Shown here: in pieces, positions 38,121-60,497 of the stretch | Layout of the letters: each line of letters begins with the position of its first letter | Numbering within the stretch: the first letter of the stretch is position 1 | Source of the DNA: Desulfofustis limnaeus | GTDB lineage: Bacteria; Desulfobacterota; Desulfobulbia; Desulfobulbales; Desulfocapsaceae | Direction of reading: 5' to 3' | DNA: 64,000 bases | Assembly (NCBI RefSeq): GCF_023169885.1 | Contig: NZ_AP025516.1 | Location: 1,116,001-1,180,000 of the forward strand | Program-made: the position numbers and the translations under genes | Notes under the pieces: model-generated | Database searches by the model: none | What the model saw: the letters and a program-made list of their open reading frames with translations, nothing else | What the model was told of the DNA's origin: nothing

Positions 38121-38651
38121 GTGCAGGTCGCATTTCATGACATCGTCGGCAACCAGTGTGTGCGCCGCATAACCGATGACGGATGGTTCCCCGGCGAGGA
38201 CGTGAAAAGCGCCGGCCCGGTGGAAGGGACGGCAGTCTTGCGCCGGACGGCAGTCGACCAGGTCGACGTGACCGGCACCCTCTCGGTACCGGTGGAAGCA
38301 CCGTGCGGGCGTTGTTGTCGTGACGTGCGGCTGGTTCTAGACATCGAGTTCTTCTATCGCTGCATTGTCGGCGAGGATGAGGCTGGTACTCTGCAGGAGA
38401 TGGAGTGCCGGGAGGAAGATAGTCAGACGCAGTTTTTAACCGAACCGGTTGTCGACCTGGGGGCCCTGTGCCGTGAACAGGTGCTTCTGGCCTTGCCGGC
38501 GCGGATATTGTGTAGTTCGGAGTGCAAGGGATTGTGTCAACAGTGCGGTGCCGATTTGAACCAGGGCTCGTGCTCGTGTCAACCGTCGACCGATACGGGA
38601 CCATTCGCCGCACTCAAGCGACTGAAGGATAACAAGGACCGGAACCACTGA
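38121..38651 (+). CDS. YceD family (DUF177) metal-binding protein
   Basis: A 176-residue protein upstream of rpmF, the usual location of YceD. The family parts are VTGTLSVPVEAPCGRCCRDVRLVLDIEF, DLGALCREQVLLALPARILCSSECKGLC and a Cys-rich end (CQQCGADLNQGSC). YceD is linked to 23S rRNA accumulation. The start is a GTG at 38121. The 200 bases before it carry no gene and no clear promoter. Confidence 0.88.
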   Translation: MQVAFHDIVGNQCVRRITDDGWFPGEDVKSAGPVEGTAVLRRTAVDQVDVTGTLSVPVEAPCGRCCRDVRLVLDIEFFYRCIVGEDEAGTLQEMECREEDSQTQFLTEPVVDLGALCREQVLLALPARILCSSECKGLCQQCGADLNQGSCSCQPSTDTGPFAALKRLKDNKDRNH

Positions 38652-38672
38652 GCCGGACGAACGGAGGAAGAT

Positions 38673-38858
38673 ATGGCCTTACCAAAAAGAAGACATTCAC
38701 ATGCGCGGACCCATAAGCGTCGTGCCCATGATGCCCTCAACAAACCGGGATTGAATCTCTGTCAGGACTGCGGCGAGCCGAAGCAGCCGCATCGCCTGTG
38801 CGGCAGCTGTGGCAAATACAAAAGTCGGGTCGTTTACGTCCTGGACTCCGAAGTCTAG
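38673..38858 (+). CDS. rpmF: 50S ribosomal protein L32
   Basis: A 61-residue L32 (MALPKRRHSHARTHKRRAHDALNK) with an intact zinc ribbon: CQDCG and CGSCG. It therefore belongs to the zinc-containing (C+) form rather than the zinc-free paralogue. It lies between the YceD gene and plsX, the standard order for the start of the fatty-acid cluster. Confidence 0.97.
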   Translation: MALPKRRHSHARTHKRRAHDALNKPGLNLCQDCGEPKQPHRLCGSCGKYKSRVVYVLDSEV

Positions 38859-38870
38859 CAGGAGCCTCCG

Positions 38871-44822: not shown

Positions 44823-44996
44823 CGAACGTGCGTCATTGCACGTGGGCGATGCATGTTATTTATTGGTTGCAAATTGGGCGGATTTGTTAAAAAGTGGGCT
44901 TTTCGACGTCATCCGCTCCCACGCTGTTCTCATCAACGGCGCGATGACGGCTAACTGGTAGCAAACAGCTGAAAAACGTTTTCAAGGAGAAATACA

Positions 44997-45227
44997 ATGG
45001 CGATCGATCAGGAAATGATTGACATCATCGTAGAACAACTGAGTGTTGAGAAAGAGAAAGTGGTTCCGCAGGCTTCCTTTGTTGACGATCTGGGCGCCGA
45101 TTCGCTTGATCTGGTGGAATTGATCATGGCGATGGAGGAAAAGTTCGATATCGAAATCCCGGACGAGGATGCCGAGAAGATCGTTACCGTTCAGGATGCC
45201 ATCAACTACGTCGGCAAGCTTAAGTAG
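44997..45227 (+). CDS. acpP: Acyl carrier protein
   Basis: A 76-residue acidic protein with the phosphopantetheine site [16 protein letters not shown] (Ser about 36-38). AAGGAG precedes the ATG. The 174-base gap to fabG is the largest in this cluster. It contains an ACGTGC/GCACGT inverted repeat at 44826-44843 without a T-run. The acpP gene may therefore have its own promoter there, as its high expression in other bacteria would need, but I could not place one. Confidence 0.97.
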
Positions 45228-45277
45228 CACATGGCTTATTTTCCCTGATCAAGGCCTCAACCGAAGGAGACTGAATC

Positions 45278-50172: not shown

Positions 50173-50278
50173 TGGTATCAGGCTATTATTTTTTTACGCT
50201 CAGGCAGATTTTGCACACGTGAGAGAACCGTGAGTACCGTTGCGGCTTCCTGTCGGCTACATCCAACGCATCCACCGG

Positions 50279-50452
50279 CTGATCTTCGGCCCCATCGCCG
50301 TTACACCACGGCTGACAGAGGGACGGTCCCCTTAACCTGGTTGTCAGGTGCCGATCTCCTGTCCGTAATCCTGCGGGCCCGAGGTGTTTTGCGGACGACC
50401 GTCGCCAGACCGTTTTCCAGCGCTACCCGTTGCCTTCTTGGTCAGATGTGAG
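50279..50452. repeat. Diverged copy of the intergenic repeat (element B)
   Basis: Positions 50279-50318 match 31223-31262 at 36 of 40 bases, and 50409-50422 repeat a 14-base block of 31350-31363 exactly. The spacing between blocks is nearly the same (130 against 127 bases). The hairpin with outer stem CTGACA/TGTCAG (50312-50317 with 50342-50347) is kept, but its inner stem is AGGG/CCCT instead of AGGCCA/TGGCCT. Terminal inverted repeats are not clear in this copy. Confidence 0.6.
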
Positions 50453-50540
50453 CGCGTGCGCCGGATATCCTCGTTTCTATCGGGGATGCTTTTTCGAGTC
50501 CTTCGGCGTTGGGTTGCATCTGGTTCACGATCGGGCTCGG

Positions 50541-53910: not shown

Positions 53911-54600
53911 TCACGCGGGGCGCTCCCCGAAGATGGCGGTACCGACCCTGATGATGGTAGCCCCTTCTTCGATGGCTACCGTGAAATCGTGCGACATGCC
54001 CATGGACAGTTCGTAATCTCCCGGGCCGGTGAACAATCCCTTCTGCTGCAGGTGCTCGGCGAGCCGCCGCAGGTCTCGGAAAAACGGGCGAGAGTCTTCA
54101 GGATCTTCGCACCAGGGGGGGATGGTCATCAAGCCCTTGATCTGCAGGTGGGAAAGATCCTGCAGGGCACGGAGCAGATCTTCGGCCGCTTCCGGCAGTA
54201 CCCCGGCCTTGTTGGCATCACGGCCGATATTCACCTGGACCAGGATTGCCATTCTTCGCTGCTGGTCTTGGAGGTGGCGGTTCAAGGCCTGGGCGATCTT
54301 CAACCGGTCGATGGTCTCGATCATGGCGAATAGTGCCGCCGCCGTCTTCGCCTTGTTGCTCTGTAAATGACCGATGAGATGCAGCTCTGCTGAAGCGGGC
54401 AGCCTGGCGTGTTTCGCGGCGGCTTCCTGCAGGTAGTTTTCGCCGAACAAGCGTTGTCCGGCAGCATAGGCTTCCAGGATGGCTTCGACGGGAAAACGTT
54501 TGGCGACGGCGACCAGTTTGATGCGACTGGGATCCCGACCGCACTGAACGGCGGTCGCCTCGATTTGCCGGTGAAGCGCTAGGAGACGAGCGGCGATCAT
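53911..54600 (-). CDS. YggS-family PLP homeostasis protein
   Basis: A 229-residue single-domain PLP-binding protein. The Schiff-base Lys is in KLVAVAKRFP (near 36), and GENYLQEAAAKH, LHLIGHLQSNK and ELSMGMSHDFTVAIEEGATIIRVGTAIFG are the family motifs. It buffers PLP and affects amino-acid metabolism. The ATG at 54600 overlaps the tatD stop by four bases, which fixes the start. Confidence 0.93.
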   Translation of the reverse strand: MIAARLLALHRQIEATAVQCGRDPSRIKLVAVAKRFPVEAILEAYAAGQRLFGENYLQEAAAKHARLPASAELHLIGHLQSNKAKTAAALFAMIETIDRLKIAQALNRHLQDQQRRMAILVQVNIGRDANKAGVLPEAAEDLLRALQDLSHLQIKGLMTIPPWCEDPEDSRPFFRDLRRLAEHLQQKGLFTGPGDYELSMGMSHDFTVAIEEGATIIRVGTAIFGERPA

Positions 54601-55424
54601 GGCGAAGGGGTTCCCGCTCGGGAAAAATCGTAACCGAACAGCTGGCGGCAATTATCGGTGGTCTGCCGGGCTATCTCCTCCAGGTCCTGGTCCCTCAGTC
54701 GGGCAACGGCTTGGGCCGTATGGATCAGGTAGAGCGGCTCGTTGCGCTTGCCGCGAAAGGGGACCGGGGCCAAAAAGGGACCATCGGTCTCCAGCAGCAG
54801 TCTGTCCAATGGTAGTCGGGCCGCAACGTCATGGAGGTTCACGGCGTTTTTGAAGGTGACAATGCCGGGAAGAGAGAGGTGCAGATTCAGATCGATGGCC
54901 CGTCGGGCCAGCTCCATGTCCCCGGAGAAGCAGTGCATGACCCCGCCATGGTCGAGCGGGCCCTGATCCTGCAGGATCTGCAGGCACTCTTCATGAGCAT
55001 CCCGGTCGTGAATGATCACCGGTAGCGCGAGTTCCTTGGCCACCTGTATCTGTCTGGCAAAGAGTGCGTGTTGGTTGGCTATGGAGGCGTAACGTTTGGC
55101 GAAATCGAGACCGATTTCGCCAAAACCGACGACGAGATCGCGATGACCTTCAATCAGTGCGGCAAGGTCTTCAAGATCACGGGGCCCGACCTGGTCGGCA
55201 TGATGCGGATGCACACCCACGCAAGCACGAATGCACCGATGGGAGCGAGCCAACTCCAGCGCCGCCAGAGAGCTGTCTCTGTCGATGCCGATGGTGATAA
55301 TACCCGTGACCCCGTGGGCGAGTGCCCGTTCCAGGACGGCTGACAGATCAGCAGCATACTCGCCCATGTCGAGATGGCAGTGGCTATCCACCAAGTGGAT
55401 GCCGGCCGGCAGCACCGGAGTCAT
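54597..55424 (-). CDS. tatD: TatD family metal-dependent hydrolase
   Basis: A 275-residue TIM-barrel hydrolase. The metal site is DSHCHLD near the start, with GEIGLDF, VIIHDRDAHEE, MHCFSGD and LLLETDGPFL. Members have 3'-5' exonuclease or D-aminoacyl-tRNA deacylase activity. The ATG at 55424 lacks a ribosome site; a GTG at 55442 with GGAG upstream, though at long spacing, is a real alternative. It is the first gene of the leftward tatD-yggS-ugd set. Confidence 0.9.
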   Translation of the reverse strand: MTPVLPAGIHLVDSHCHLDMGEYAADLSAVLERALAHGVTGIITIGIDRDSSLAALELARSHRCIRACVGVHPHHADQVGPRDLEDLAALIEGHRDLVVGFGEIGLDFAKRYASIANQHALFARQIQVAKELALPVIIHDRDAHEECLQILQDQGPLDHGGVMHCFSGDMELARRAIDLNLHLSLPGIVTFKNAVNLHDVAARLPLDRLLLETDGPFLAPVPFRGKRNEPLYLIHTAQAVARLRDQDLEEIARQTTDNCRQLFGYDFSRAGTPSP

Positions 55425-55777
55425 TGGCCGTGCGGGGCGCACAATCGTTCTTTCTCCACGGATCGTCGCGTACTTGTTTCGAGTAAAACCGTTCGACCGC
55501 AGCCTTGCAGCAGGAAAGGTGTTGAAGATACAGGGCGGAAATGATCGCTTCAGGGGTTTTACGAATGGTCTTTTCTTTAGCAAATTCGGCACGGGTGTGC
55601 AACGGCAAAGATGGCAGGTGGCCAGGGGGTGGCAGGAATTCGAAAAGGAACGGAACTATTTTTGCTGCATGTGTATAAATACACGAAAATAATTAATATA
55701 TTTCGTCGGTTCCGATTCGAATTCGGGGATTGTTTTGATATGCAGCTGATTTTCATTGTGAAAATTAAAAAAACAGC

Positions 55778-55806
55778 TTCAACTGCTGAAAAAACTATCG
55801 TATAGT
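55778..55806 (+). promoter_or_regulatory. Possible promoter for the RNA leader of the roadblock-MglA operon
   Basis: TTCAAC at 55778-55783 and TATAGT at 55801-55806 are 17 bases apart, at the end of the AT-rich tract. The -10 matches five of six bases and the -35 only three. Transcription would begin near 55813, just before the long-range stem. Confidence 0.4.
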
Positions 55807-55811
55807 GGTAA

Positions 55812-56034
55812 GGATAGCAGCAGGATACGGCCACTTTTTCAACTATGACGGGTGGTTGTTGACGTGTGAATCGGTTCGCTACGGTCGGTTTCAGTGACTG
55901 CAGTGCGCGCCGAGCGGGCGGGGGGACGCTGATGTGCCGGAGCACAGACGGCAGCACGTAAAATGGCGTATCCCGGTCACCATCAGACAGTGGAAGATAA
56001 CTGGACCGGGCTTTTCTACCCGGTGCGTTTTTTT
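55812..56034 (+). ncRNA. Candidate structured RNA or attenuated leader
   Basis: GGATACG-g-CCA at 55823-55833 can pair with TGGCGTATCC at 55964-55973: ten base pairs with one bulge closing a loop of about 130 bases. Inside are smaller stems, such as TGCCG/CGGCA (55935-55939 with 55949-55953). A terminator hairpin follows at 56005-56034. No rightward protein gene lies upstream, so the terminator must serve either a small RNA or a leader that controls the roadblock gene 86 bases downstream. It does not match any riboswitch class I can recall. Confidence 0.4.
56005..56034 (+). terminator. Intrinsic terminator/attenuator upstream of the roadblock gene
   Basis: Stem ACCGGG/CCCGGT (56005-56010 with 56019-56024) with an eight-base loop, then GCG and seven T residues (56028-56034). 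It lies between the possible promoter and the roadblock start codon at 56120. Confidence 0.6.
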
Positions 56035-56119
56035 GTTGAACCGTTCAGGGATCGATAACAGGCTGTTAACATTTAAGTGAAGCCGTGCGCAGGGCTCAAA
56101 ACAACAAGAGGTAACCGGG

Positions 56120-56518
56120 ATGAATTACGGAATTGTCAGTCAGGAACAGCTTGAGCAGATCGATACGATTCTCACTGACAAGCTGATTAAACTGGGTGTT
56201 GACTGTGTGATCATCATTGATATGGCGGGCAACATCATAACCGCCAAAGACAATGGTGAGAGCAAGTATGACGTCTACTCCTTCGCCGCGCTGGCTGCCG
56301 GTAACTTCGCAACGGTTGACGCCATGGCCAAGTTGGTCGGGGAGCAGGAATTTTCCCTGCTCTTTCATAAGGGTCAGGAATCGAACATTCATTTTTCCAA
56401 AATAGATGATGAACTCCTGCTCATATCAATGTTTGGCAAAGACATCTCCTTAGGGTTCCTGCGCCTCAACGTGGTAGATGTCATAGAAAAAATCCGCCAA
56501 TTGTGGAAGCGCAAATAG
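56120..56518 (+). CDS. Roadblock/LC7-domain protein (possible MglB-like partner)
   Basis: A 132-residue protein that is a single roadblock/LC7 domain at about residues 10-125: LIKLGVDCVIIIDMAGNIITAKDNG, then AALAAGNFATVDAMAKLVGEQEFSLLFHKGQESNIHFSKIDDELLLISMFG. In Myxococcus the roadblock protein MglB is the GTPase-activating partner of MglA. Here a roadblock gene directly precedes an MglA-like GTPase gene, so the same partnership is a strong inference. AAGAGGT precedes the ATG. Confidence 0.88.
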   Translation: MNYGIVSQEQLEQIDTILTDKLIKLGVDCVIIIDMAGNIITAKDNGESKYDVYSFAALAAGNFATVDAMAKLVGEQEFSLLFHKGQESNIHFSKIDDELLLISMFGKDISLGFLRLNVVDVIEKIRQLWKRK

Positions 56519-56597: not shown

Positions 56598-57203
56598 TTG
56601 AGCTTCATCAACCTGAAAGAAAAAGTCGTCCAGGTCAAAATCGTCTACTACGGACCCGGTCGATGCGGCAAGACGACCAACCTCGAGTATATCAACAAGA
56701 CGTATCGCAACCAGATCGTCTCAGAAATGGTCAGCTTGAAAACACATGGCGATCGGACGTTGTTTTTCGATTTTTTGCCTTTTGATATGGGCAAGATAAA
56801 GGGCTATGACATAAAAATTCAGCTCTACACGGTTCCCGGCCAGGTCAAGTATAACGCCACGAGAAAGCTGGTTCTCAGAGGTGTTGACGGTATCGTCTTT
56901 GTCGCCGATGCCATGGTCAAGCAGCGGGAGAAAAATATCCGGTCGTTGAATCAGTTGCATGAGAATCTGCTTTCCTACAAAGAGAGTATTTTTAAAATTC
57001 CGTTGGTAATGCAGTATAATAAGGTTGATCTCAAAGAGCATGGGATCCCGATTTTACCGACGGAAGTCCTGCAGAAGGACCTCAACAGCAAATTAAAAGT
57101 TCCCTATTTTGAAGCGAGTGCCATAACCGGTTATAATGTTGCTGCGACATTGAAGAAAATCATATCTTCAACCGTTATTTCTATTCAGAAAAAACTACTC
57201 TAG
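56598..57203 (+). CDS. mglA: MglA-like small Ras-family GTPase
   Basis: A 201-residue GTPase. P-loop GPGRCGKTTN lies near 19-28, followed by DRTLFFDFLPFDMG, the switch II region YTVPGQVKYNATRKL near 79-93, and NKVDL near 140-144. The sequence clearly follows Myxococcus MglA, including TVPGQ and GVDGIVFVADA. MglA switches between GTP and GDP forms to set cell polarity and motility. The start is a TTG at 56598 with GAGGAGAG upstream. It ends 12 bases before the giant acidic protein gene. Confidence 0.92.
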   Translation: MSFINLKEKVVQVKIVYYGPGRCGKTTNLEYINKTYRNQIVSEMVSLKTHGDRTLFFDFLPFDMGKIKGYDIKIQLYTVPGQVKYNATRKLVLRGVDGIVFVADAMVKQREKNIRSLNQLHENLLSYKESIFKIPLVMQYNKVDLKEHGIPILPTEVLQKDLNSKLKVPYFEASAITGYNVAATLKKIISSTVISIQKKLL

Positions 57204-57215
57204 AGAGAAGGCACG

Positions 57216-60200
57216 GTGCAACGACAAGCGGACAGCCAATACGACGACGACCTTACTGTTGGAATCGGCGGTGACCATGACGATGGACCCATCGATGCCG
57301 GATATGTGGATTTGTTCGAGTATTCGGGAGAGGAAGAATCTCCCATAGCTCGACTGAAAACGATCGTTTTGTCGATTGACTGGGAGATTACCGATGAAGT
57401 CCTCACCCAATTCAATGAAGAGTTACTCGATCTTCAAGACATATGGGCCGACGATCCGATAAAACTCGTCTATGTTCAGGCCCTGCAGAAGATAAGCAAG
57501 TATATCTTTCAGCAAAAAGCGAACGCTCATCCCAGTGCGATCAGGCTGCTGCTGACCTTGTACTATGACCTGGAGAAGATCGTCCTCGATCAAAATCTCA
57601 GCGAAGATGAAAAAAAGGAGATCCTGCGAGTCGACGTTAAAAAGTTTGAACAATTGAAGCGGCAAATCGAGGCGGAGGCGGGAAAGGGCAAGAAAGCGAT
57701 GGAGCCGGCGCCGAGCAGCGCGCCTCTCTCCCTGTCGGAAGAAGGTGCCGCGCATCCGGTCCTGTTCAACCTGAAAGCGTGCATCCTGGGCATGGACTGG
57801 GAGATCACCGAACGCGAATTGAGTGAGTTGAGTCGGGAAGTTCGACGGCTGGAAATCGAATTCGCCGGAAACAAGCCGCGCATGCTTTTTCTGCAGGGTA
57901 TCGAGGCGCTGGGTGGTTATATCAAATTGAAACGGAGCGATGCCCATGCCGACGCTTTCAAGCTCCTCTACTCTTTCTACGAGGGGCTCGAAAAGATTGT
58001 TGTCAACGATATGACCCTGGAAGAAGAGAAAGCGGTCCTTCTACCGGAGGTTGAGAAGTTCGAACAGTTCAAGAAAATCATATCGCCGACGTTGGTGAGA
58101 TCGGACGAGCCGGACACCGAGGTGGATCGGGGAGAGGCCGAGGAACAGGAAGAGCGGGGAGAAGGCGAGGTGGCGCCTGCCTTTGCCGACCTGCCGGAGG
58201 AAGTACAGGGATTCCAGGCAGAGCGAGAGGCCGCTGAGCTTGGCGAGTCGTTGCCCGACGATGTGGAGAGCCGGCTTGACGCCTTCTTCTCTGAACCCGG
58301 TGAGACGGAGGAACCGGCACCGGCTGAGAAGCAAGCACCGGTCTTGGAAGAAGCGGCATCTCACGACACCTTTTCCCAGGAGGCGGCTGAACAGGTTGCC
58401 TCGTTCTTCGATGATGCGGAGAGCAAGGGTGCCGGCGATTATGCGCCAAGTGTCAGTACCGAAGAAGCTCTTCGTGGGGTCGATGTGGAAACAGAGGCGG
58501 ATGATGATTCCGACGAGGACGCCCTGCCTACCGAGGCGGATGGTAAACTGGCGCCGGCTCTGGCGGATACCGGAGAAGAACTCACCGATCTCTTTGCAGA
58601 AGAACCAGGATTGGTCAGCGGCCCCGTTGCCGATACGGCGACCGAGGAACTCGAGGCGCGTCTCGACGGATTCTTTGCTGAGTCCGAGGAGTCACCGGCG
58701 CCAGAAGCGGCGACGAAAAGTGACATCGATGCCGATACGATCGCTGCGATGCTTGCCGAGGACGAAGACGTCGCTCCAGCGCTCTCGTTTGCCGGGGACG
58801 ACCTGGATGAAGGTGCGCCCATAGCCTCGGAGACGGTTGAAGGTGATCTCGAAGATCAGCTTGACAACCTTTTTGCCGATCACGCCAGTGAAGTGCCAGC
58901 TGCCCTGGAAGGATCGGATTTTTCTGAAGATGCTCAAAAAGTAGCTGCGTCCGAAGAGGAAACCTTTGCTTGGTCTGATGAAACCGAACCGGCGCTGTTC
59001 GCCAGCGAAGAATCCGTAGAGATGGAGGAACGGCTGGCCTCGTTTTTCGAAGAACCGCAAGAAGGAGACGAACAACCGCGGACAGCGCTCGATTCTGAGC
59101 AGGAGGTGGAGGAGCAGGTATCGGCATTTTTCGAGGAGCCCGAACAAGAGACCGACGTTCAAGAGATGGCTGAGGACGTGGTCTTCGCCCCGGCGGAAGA
59201 AGCGGAAATCAGCGGGGATGAAGAACTTCCCGCAGCGATCCTCGAGGAGGAACCGAAGTTCAGCACCTTCGCCAGTGAATCGGACGAAGAGGAATTTTTT
59301 GCCGCCATTGATGAGCGGGTGGATGAGCCGGGTGAATTCCAGATGGAGTTGCTGGACGAAAAAGAGGATATCGATACCCGTGCCGTTTTTGCGTTGGAAG
59401 AAGCGCCGAGCGAGGAGATGCTCGAGCAGCCTGCGGCGGAACTACCGGCCGCCGGTTTGACGGCCGATGTGGCAGCAGATGAGGAAGAGACGTATCACTT
59501 TGGGAGCGATGACGATCTCAACGATCTGCGTGCAGGAATCGCTTCGCTCGGAGTTGAAATCAGCGACACCATCATTGAAGGTATTCTCAAGGCGGTGAAC
59601 AGTCTGCGGCATCACTTTGCCAACCGCCCGGCCGAGAAGACCTTTTTGCAGCTCATTTCCACCATTGTTCAGCATATCGGCCAGTATCGATACGAAGCGA
59701 GTGCCGAGGCGCATGGGTTGTTGCTTTCTGTTTTTGATAAGCTTGAATTGATTCAGAATCCCGAGTTGCCGCCCGATCAGGCTTTGGAGGTGCTCCTGAC
59801 AGAGACCACGAAAATTCTGCAGTGGCAGCAGACCATGCTCGATCGCCAGGCAATTCGCAAAGGTGATGAATTGACCTTCCTGTCTCCGGTTCGTTCCGAG
59901 CAGGAGCCTGATTCCGAGGAGCCGGTAAGGGGAGCGGAGGGCGAGGGGCTCGGCGCTGTCGATGTTCAGGAAACGGTGGCGCCGACCGGTGAGCAACCTG
60001 ATCTGAACTCCGATTTCTCCGCCGTTTTTGAGCCGGTTCCCGAAGAGGAACCGATGACGGAGGAAGGACCGGATGATGTGGCGGTAGCCGCTGACCCGGC
60101 CTTCTTGAGCCTCGATGAACAACCGGATTTCTTTGCCGGAGCGGGTGGTGATGGTGCTGTTGAAGAGACAGGTGCCGGCGGGTTTCCTGCCGAAGAATGG

Positions 60201-60497
60201 GACACCGATGAGGACATCGTGAAGACCGAAGAGCTGGTTCCGCCTGATGAGCCACCTTTTCTGAGTCTGGATGATGACCCCGATTTTGTTGTCGCTGCAG
60301 ACGAACTCATTGCGGCAGACATTGAATCAGCAGGCGTTGGTGAGGATCAGGGAGAGAGCGAAACGGCACCGTCGACGAGGATGGCTCCCGAGGAGGCCAT
60401 CGCTGAGTATGTGAAAAAGGAACTGGAGGCATTGCGCGTCTCTCTTCAGGAAGAGCTTGCGGAACTTCGCAAGCGCCTGGATTCCCGGGAGGAGTAA
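57216..60497 (+). CDS. Giant acidic repeat protein, unknown family, third gene of the roadblock-MglA operon
   Basis: A 1093-residue, strongly acidic, soluble protein; I do not recognise the family. Three copies of an ~108-residue helical domain lie at about 43-150, 183-290 and 768-875. The first two share a W-E-I-T motif, an I/L-x-x-x-x-Y-I core and an ending like KKFEQLKRQI. Residues 300-760 are Glu/Asp-rich, probably disordered, and contain about seven short motifs of the form E-x-x-L/V-x-x-F/L-F near 356, 397, 459, 486, 552, 609 and 638. The last ~35 residues form a basic-acidic coiled coil (EYVKKELEALRVSLQEELAELRKRL). The start is a GTG at 57216 behind GAGAAGG. The 12-base gap after mglA implies one transcript. 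A scaffold or effector for the GTPase is the most plausible role, by context only. Confidence 0.8.
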   Translation: MQRQADSQYDDDLTVGIGGDHDDGPIDAGYVDLFEYSGEEESPIARLKTIVLSIDWEITDEVLTQFNEELLDLQDIWADDPIKLVYVQALQKISKYIFQQKANAHPSAIRLLLTLYYDLEKIVLDQNLSEDEKKEILRVDVKKFEQLKRQIEAEAGKGKKAMEPAPSSAPLSLSEEGAAHPVLFNLKACILGMDWEITERELSELSREVRRLEIEFAGNKPRMLFLQGIEALGGYIKLKRSDAHADAFKLLYSFYEGLEKIVVNDMTLEEEKAVLLPEVEKFEQFKKIISPTLVRSDEPDTEVDRGEAEEQEERGEGEVAPAFADLPEEVQGFQAEREAAELGESLPDDVESRLDAFFSEPGETEEPAPAEKQAPVLEEAASHDTFSQEAAEQVASFFDDAESKGAGDYAPSVSTEEALRGVDVETEADDDSDEDALPTEADGKLAPALADTGEELTDLFAEEPGLVSGPVADTATEELEARLDGFFAESEESPAPEAATKSDIDADTIAAMLAEDEDVAPALSFAGDDLDEGAPIASETVEGDLEDQLDNLFADHASEVPAALEGSDFSEDAQKVAASEEETFAWSDETEPALFASEESVEMEERLASFFEEPQEGDEQPRTALDSEQEVEEQVSAFFEEPEQETDVQEMAEDVVFAPAEEAEISGDEELPAAILEEEPKFSTFASESDEEEFFAAIDERVDEPGEFQMELLDEKEDIDTRAVFALEEAPSEEMLEQPAAELPAAGLTADVAADEEETYHFGSDDDLNDLRAGIASLGVEISDTIIEGILKAVNSLRHHFANRPAEKTFLQLISTIVQHIGQYRYEASAEAHGLLLSVFDKLELIQNPELPPDQALEVLLTETTKILQWQQTMLDRQAIRKGDELTFLSPVRSEQEPDSEEPVRGAEGEGLGAVDVQETVAPTGEQPDLNSDFSAVFEPVPEEEPMTEEGPDDVAVAADPAFLSLDEQPDFFAGAGGDGAVEETGAGGFPAEEWDTDEDIVKTEELVPPDEPPFLSLDDDPDFVVAADELIAADIESAGVGEDQGESETAPSTRMAPEEAIAEYVKKELEALRVSLQEELAELRKRLDSREE

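Follow-up and report, generated by a model that had tools for sequence, protein, structure and literature searches.

The DNA ahead of the roadblock-mglA operon of Desulfofustis limnaeus, previously proposed to hold a new structured RNA or riboswitch-like leader, probably (with a probability of about 0.8) comprises that operon's promoter together with its long untranslated leader. A promoter-like block on the plus strand at positions 55739-55812 is conserved at the same locus in relatives from two families, and most of the sequence between this block and the start codon has no counterpart among the matches listed for the family genomes. A likely false lead, the new riboswitch, is thereby removed, and a testable operon-specific promoter-like signal replaces it. 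This signal, mostly present once per genome, yields a predicted transcription start for the roadblock-GTPase operon in 108 of the searched genomes, and the reason for the tight retention of such a signal by one operon is a testable question.

The locus

The window, i.e. the whole stretch of DNA analysed, comprises 64,000 nucleotides of the 4.23-Mb D. limnaeus genome. The region of interest separates a minus-strand TatD-family gene (54597-55592 as its longest frame) from three plus-strand genes: a roadblock/LC7-like protein of 132 amino acids (56120-56518; Robl_LC7, E 8.7e-05, with a score of 22.6 bits, slightly below the curated cut-off of 23), an MglA-like small GTPase of the Ras-like kind with 201 amino acids (56598-57203; Ras PF00071, E 2e-11), and a protein of 1093 amino acids that is next in the operon (57216-60497) and has no Pfam match at E <= 0.001. 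A roadblock protein and a Ras-like GTPase also make up the MglB-MglA pair of Myxococcus xanthus. As had been pointed out before, no rightward gene lies upstream that could be served by the terminator-like hairpin described below, the neighbouring TatD-family gene being on the minus strand. Comparison within the genus depends on a single genome (G001), taken to be that of Desulfofustis glycolicus DSM 9705; its stretch L002 recurs without a single difference inside stretch L015.

A conserved promoter-like block

The block consists of an A-rich upstream part, CTTCAACT, ten nucleotides, CTATCGTATAGT and GGTAAG. It is 76-86% identical to the same locus of six relatives, with matches that span 55739-55806 or more. 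Across the relatives the core reads CTTCATAT or CTTCAACT, then ten nucleotides, then CTATCGTATAGT, with an A-rich block ahead of it; at Desulfobulbus-type loci, the weaker profile matches have mostly the same core but with CTNNCGTATACT. Within the core are a -35-like hexamer, TTCAAC (55778-55783; TTCATA in most relatives), and a -10-like hexamer, TATAGT (55801-55806), 17 bp apart. Promoters of the sigma70 type have -10 and -35 hexamers 16-18 bp apart and a transcription start about 6-8 nucleotides downstream of the -10 hexamer. TATAGT agrees with the sigma70 consensus in five of six letters and TTCAAC in only three (the -35-like hexamer of most relatives in four), and a strict promoter scan that required at least 4/6 letters per hexamer and at least 9/12 in total did not report the element.

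Because both hexamers, their 17-bp spacing and the upstream A-rich block occur together, a promoter is the simplest reading, with which the direction of the block and its link to roadblock-mglA agree. In these same features the block resembles a sigma70-type promoter with an A-rich UP-like element, from which it differs by having TTCATA or TTCAAC in place of TTGACA, by additional conserved letters outside the hexamers (CTTCA.T and CT..CG), and by being mostly single-copy and bound to one operon. On this reading, the A-rich block and the two hexamers would be bound by RNA polymerase, the housekeeping sigma factor being its simplest partner. From the presence of the block ahead of roadblock-mglA in relatives, and from its position, we infer that transcription probably starts near 55813, giving the mRNA a 5' leader of about 307 nucleotides (55813-56119, plus strand) that is mostly unconserved; the distance from the -10-like hexamer to the ATG is 313 nucleotides. 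A search by titles and the opening lines of abstracts found, among the papers listed, nothing on this element and no published promoter for a roadblock-mglA-type operon in Desulfobulbales, which falls short of proof that none has been published.

Two other functions considered for the block were rejected. A short open reading frame (21 codons from 55740), readable in D. glycolicus and in G017, contains a stop in L004 (G008) and loses its frame in L006 (G011) although the DNA letters persist. The palindrome ACTATCGTATAGT, a candidate operator, is lost (as judged by eye) in relatives that have TATACT.

Distribution of the block among genomes

Of 257 genomes from the order, 111 contain an exact match to CTTCAWMT-N10-CTNNCGTATA, a 28-base pattern in which 16 bases are specified; 108 have a single copy and three have two. 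The same pattern written backwards, which served as the control, is present in one of the 257. Counted by eye, 57 of the 111 genomes belong to the family of D. limnaeus (f1, which we take to be Desulfocapsaceae) and 54 to a second family (f12, presumably Desulfobulbaceae), where the motif letters are identical to those of the Desulfogranum mediterraneum and Desulfobulbus elongatus loci (L068 and L090). Among the 257 genomes the exact pattern had no match in the other families of the order. On the same strand as the roadblock gene and 67-625 nucleotides upstream of it are 109 of the 114 matches, from 108 genomes, and the distance from motif to ATG is below 90 nucleotides in 36 of these 109 cases. 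As for the remaining five matches, the listed roadblock match is on a different contig in G148 and G078, the roadblock place of G174 is not among the matches listed, and those of G196 and G076 are second matches.

The roadblock protein itself had matches in 203 of the 257 genomes, with places listed for 148, and in 40 of these 148 the exact motif is missing before the roadblock gene, some matches being at contig ends. Twenty of the 40 motif-less upstream regions were compared with a 30-letter form of the motif; three differed by one mismatch, two by two, three by three, and twelve by five or more, the last group including genera g2 and g16, part of g5, and families f7 and f3. A profile built from the leaders was run on 79 upstream regions and recovered the element in 49 at E < 1e-3; the profile's seed was 34 rows from the same upstream set, selected on the -10 side only and including one (L058) that is out of register. 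CTTCA stands at the fixed distance in 31 of the 34 seed rows.

The TatD-family gene is an improbable target of the element, because roadblock-mglA is downstream of the motif at 29 of 30 f12 loci (the remaining one, L143, is short and has no roadblock match), and none of the 30 has a TatD match within the stretches examined. In D. limnaeus the exact pattern occurs once, and with up to three mismatches there are 45 matches versus 39 for the control; no genome-wide family of the element was seen in this genome. The only other exact copy of CTATCGTATAGT in the genome (G000:C1:1609305-1609316, L096) is without the CTTCA part, and the gene just after it is, to judge from its start, presumably a single-strand-binding-protein-like one.

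With 55740-56119 (380 bases) as the query, 27 of the 93 genomes of the family, as counted by eye, match at E <= 0.01; in 24 the match is at the roadblock locus, and in three (G060, G019 and G071) it is on a contig other than that of the roadblock gene. The corresponding number for 420 bases before a gene that we take to be HU-like is 6 of 93, a thin comparison, this being the sole usable control region and one that contains a dispersed repeat.

Structure of the predicted leader

No Rfam model matched at its gathering score anywhere in the window, and a permissive search of 55700-56130 yielded only matches with E 0.77 and 4.4, far below the gathering scores. In a search of the 93 family genomes, with about seven candidates scored per genome, D. 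glycolicus is the only genome among the matches listed in which similarity at the locus extends beyond about 55814, reaching 55860 and resuming at 56058-56118; for the middle of the leader (55861-56057) there is no match at the locus among the matches listed.

The structure first proposed for this region was closed by a long-range stem between 55823-55833 and 55964-55973 on the plus strand. Its ten Watson-Crick pairs, with G55830 bulged, can indeed be drawn, but as a meaningful structure the stem is at chance level: of 100 dinucleotide-shuffled versions of 55813-56034, 22 hold a stem of ten or more Watson-Crick pairs interrupted by one bulge at most. The pair probabilities are 0.11-0.21 within 55813-56034 and 0.05-0.10 within 55813-56119, and the stem is missing from the minimum-energy fold of 55813-56034. 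It appears in the minimum-energy fold of an RNA ending at 56004, before the terminator (probabilities 0.29-0.55), and of one ending at 56008, and at no other length tried. The fold z-scores are 0.04 for 55810-56035 and -0.69 for 55778-56119. Four of the ten pairs are kept in the pairwise alignment with D. glycolicus, which is weak in the middle of the leader, so that broken pairs counted there mainly mean that no counterpart was seen. Compensatory change, by which the original prediction had proposed to be judged, was sought in this one sister genome, and the outer stem shows no covariation. With six of ten pairs broken and no match listed for the middle of the leader, an aptamer kept across species by compensatory changes was not found. 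On sequence comparison, the drawn structure is seen only in the D. limnaeus genome, and the analysis does not support a structured RNA or riboswitch that relatives share.

Near the predicted 5' end, a hairpin of 13 pairs with a loop of four (55827-55859, plus strand) excludes the outer stem by using 55827-55833. All 13 pairs are possible in D. glycolicus, six by one-sided and none by two-sided change. The fragment 55823-55866 has a z of -2.42 (4 of 200 shuffles as good) and the D. glycolicus fragment, in a slightly different cut, a z of -0.92 (29 of 200); the support for this hairpin consists of two sequences. In the leaders of two related genomes, L029 and L033, the first 80 nucleotides hold a very stable hairpin near the start (z -6.2 and -4.7).

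A second small hairpin, AGCC/GGCT, precedes the Shine-Dalgarno sequence (56081-56096, plus strand, with arms 56081-56084 and 56093-56096); its four pairs are unchanged in D. glycolicus (4/5 in each). Leaders of the Desulfocapsa type have a five-pair hairpin right before the Shine-Dalgarno sequence with exchanged pairs (GAGTT/AACTC, GAACC/GGTTC and GGGCC/GGCTC). All five pairs, G-T allowed, can form in 18 of 24 rows, which were picked by eye from that leader type and are related to each other, versus a mean of 11.9 for re-dealt arms, with none of 2000 re-deals reaching 18. RNAalifold predicted no pairs for this hairpin from an automatic alignment in which the 5' arm is misaligned, and the last 60 nucleotides of all 49 leaders have a mean fold z of 0.06. 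Both hairpins of the D. limnaeus leader may influence mRNA stability or translation, and apart from them the leader would drift largely freely.

The terminator-like hairpin, correctly recognized in the original prediction, lies at 56005-56034 on the plus strand, with a stem of 56005-56010 and 56019-56024 and seven T residues at 56028, and it ends 85 bases short of the start codon (ATG, 56120). The fragment 55998-56034 has a z of -2.96, and one of 200 shuffles folds equally well. In the alignment with D. glycolicus, two of its six pairs are kept. That terminators are common to the leaders of relatives was considered and rejected: terminator-like sites are found in 7 of 49 leaders versus 7, 5 and 7 in shuffles of two-base blocks, i.e. 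without excess. The hairpin and its T residues may be a species-level addition that would stop some of the transcripts after about 220 nucleotides. As the promoter-like element that two families retain abuts the stretch, a long 5' leader including the terminator is likely in D. limnaeus; to this extent the earlier proposal of a leader is supported, unlike that of a structured RNA or riboswitch common to relatives.

Alternative explanations

The terminator might belong to an attenuator specific to this species. CCCGGTC (55972-55978) can pair with GACCGGG (56004-56010) on the plus strand as a possible antiterminator, and the leader would then toggle between this helix and the terminator stem, with the outer stem blocking the antiterminator and thereby favouring termination. 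The two states are mutually exclusive and 0.4 kcal/mol apart (-75.8 and -75.4), the terminator is still formed when the outer stem is forced (-73.2), and a seven-pair helix of this kind arises in 19 of 1000 shuffles; the terminator's low z and the outer stem in the minimum-energy folds of RNAs ending at 56004 and 56008 also fit. Such an attenuator is nevertheless doubtful. The antiterminator was spotted after the fact, the D. glycolicus alignment, weak as it is, breaks all seven of its pairs along with four of the six terminator pairs and most of the outer stem, and the relatives' leaders are without any excess of terminators. By its sequence signals, the leader has the intrinsic terminator of known attenuators and riboswitches and possibly a competing helix; it differs from them in that no conserved sensor, homologue or antiterminator kept in relatives was found. 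An independent small RNA of about 220 nucleotides, running from the conserved promoter to an end near 56034, is similarly doubtful: the promoter-like element and the terminator do flank the stretch, but 55861-56057 is without a listed match at the locus in the family genomes, the fold z is close to zero, Rfam has no match, and the same element often stands too close to the ATG in relatives. A leader able to shrink to 70 nucleotides cannot carry an essential RNA of 220. A novel riboswitch-like RNA common to related genomes is extremely improbable, being already contradicted by the absence of homologues from the searched genomes. The long leader ahead of the operon would suit it, as would the slightly negative mean fold z of 49 leaders (-0.53, standard error 0.21, with 5 of 49 below -2), but the window's own leader scores +0.28, the negative mean owes much to a few outliers, L059 and L061 among them, and a third of the leaders (the 36 of 109 noted above) are shorter than 90 nucleotides. 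L059 and L061 are both of the Desulfocapsa type; with their greater lengths (387 and 365 nucleotides) and unusually stable folds (z -7.5 and -4.0), they look as though an insertion carrying inverted repeats had landed between the promoter and the gene.

Other explanations concern the block itself. Neither the conserved CTTCA nor the CG preceding the -10-like hexamer is typical of a plain sigma70 promoter, so the block could instead be recognized by an alternative sigma factor or by a dedicated single-target regulator. This is possible, if on the unlikely side: near-single copy, attachment to the operon in nearly all matches (109 of 114) and conserved letters outside the hexamers argue for it, but the 17-bp spacing and TATANT suit sigma70. 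It is rather unlikely that 55739-55812 is recognized by an alternative sigma factor, or by a regulator devoted to it, whose sole target in each genome is the roadblock-MglA operon and that, in addition, a species-level attenuator operates in D. limnaeus, a combination that takes the block to be near-invariant across two families while almost everything up to the start codon drifts.

Other features of the window

The dispersed repeat before the HU-like gene (at about 50230-50466) recurs in six more places of the genome with 72-76% identity over about 154-217 nucleotides. Two further regions were rejected as non-coding controls: 44858-45277, which matches 73 of the 93 family genomes, holds a presumably acyl-carrier-protein-like gene (44997-45227), and 38574-38870, which matches 72 of the 93, holds a presumably L32-like gene (38673-38858), both names being suggested by the translations. 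As both regions contain genes, their broad matches are uninformative on promoters. The two frames, of 76 and 61 amino acids respectively and both on the plus strand, are short conserved genes of the kind easily lost to length cut-offs.
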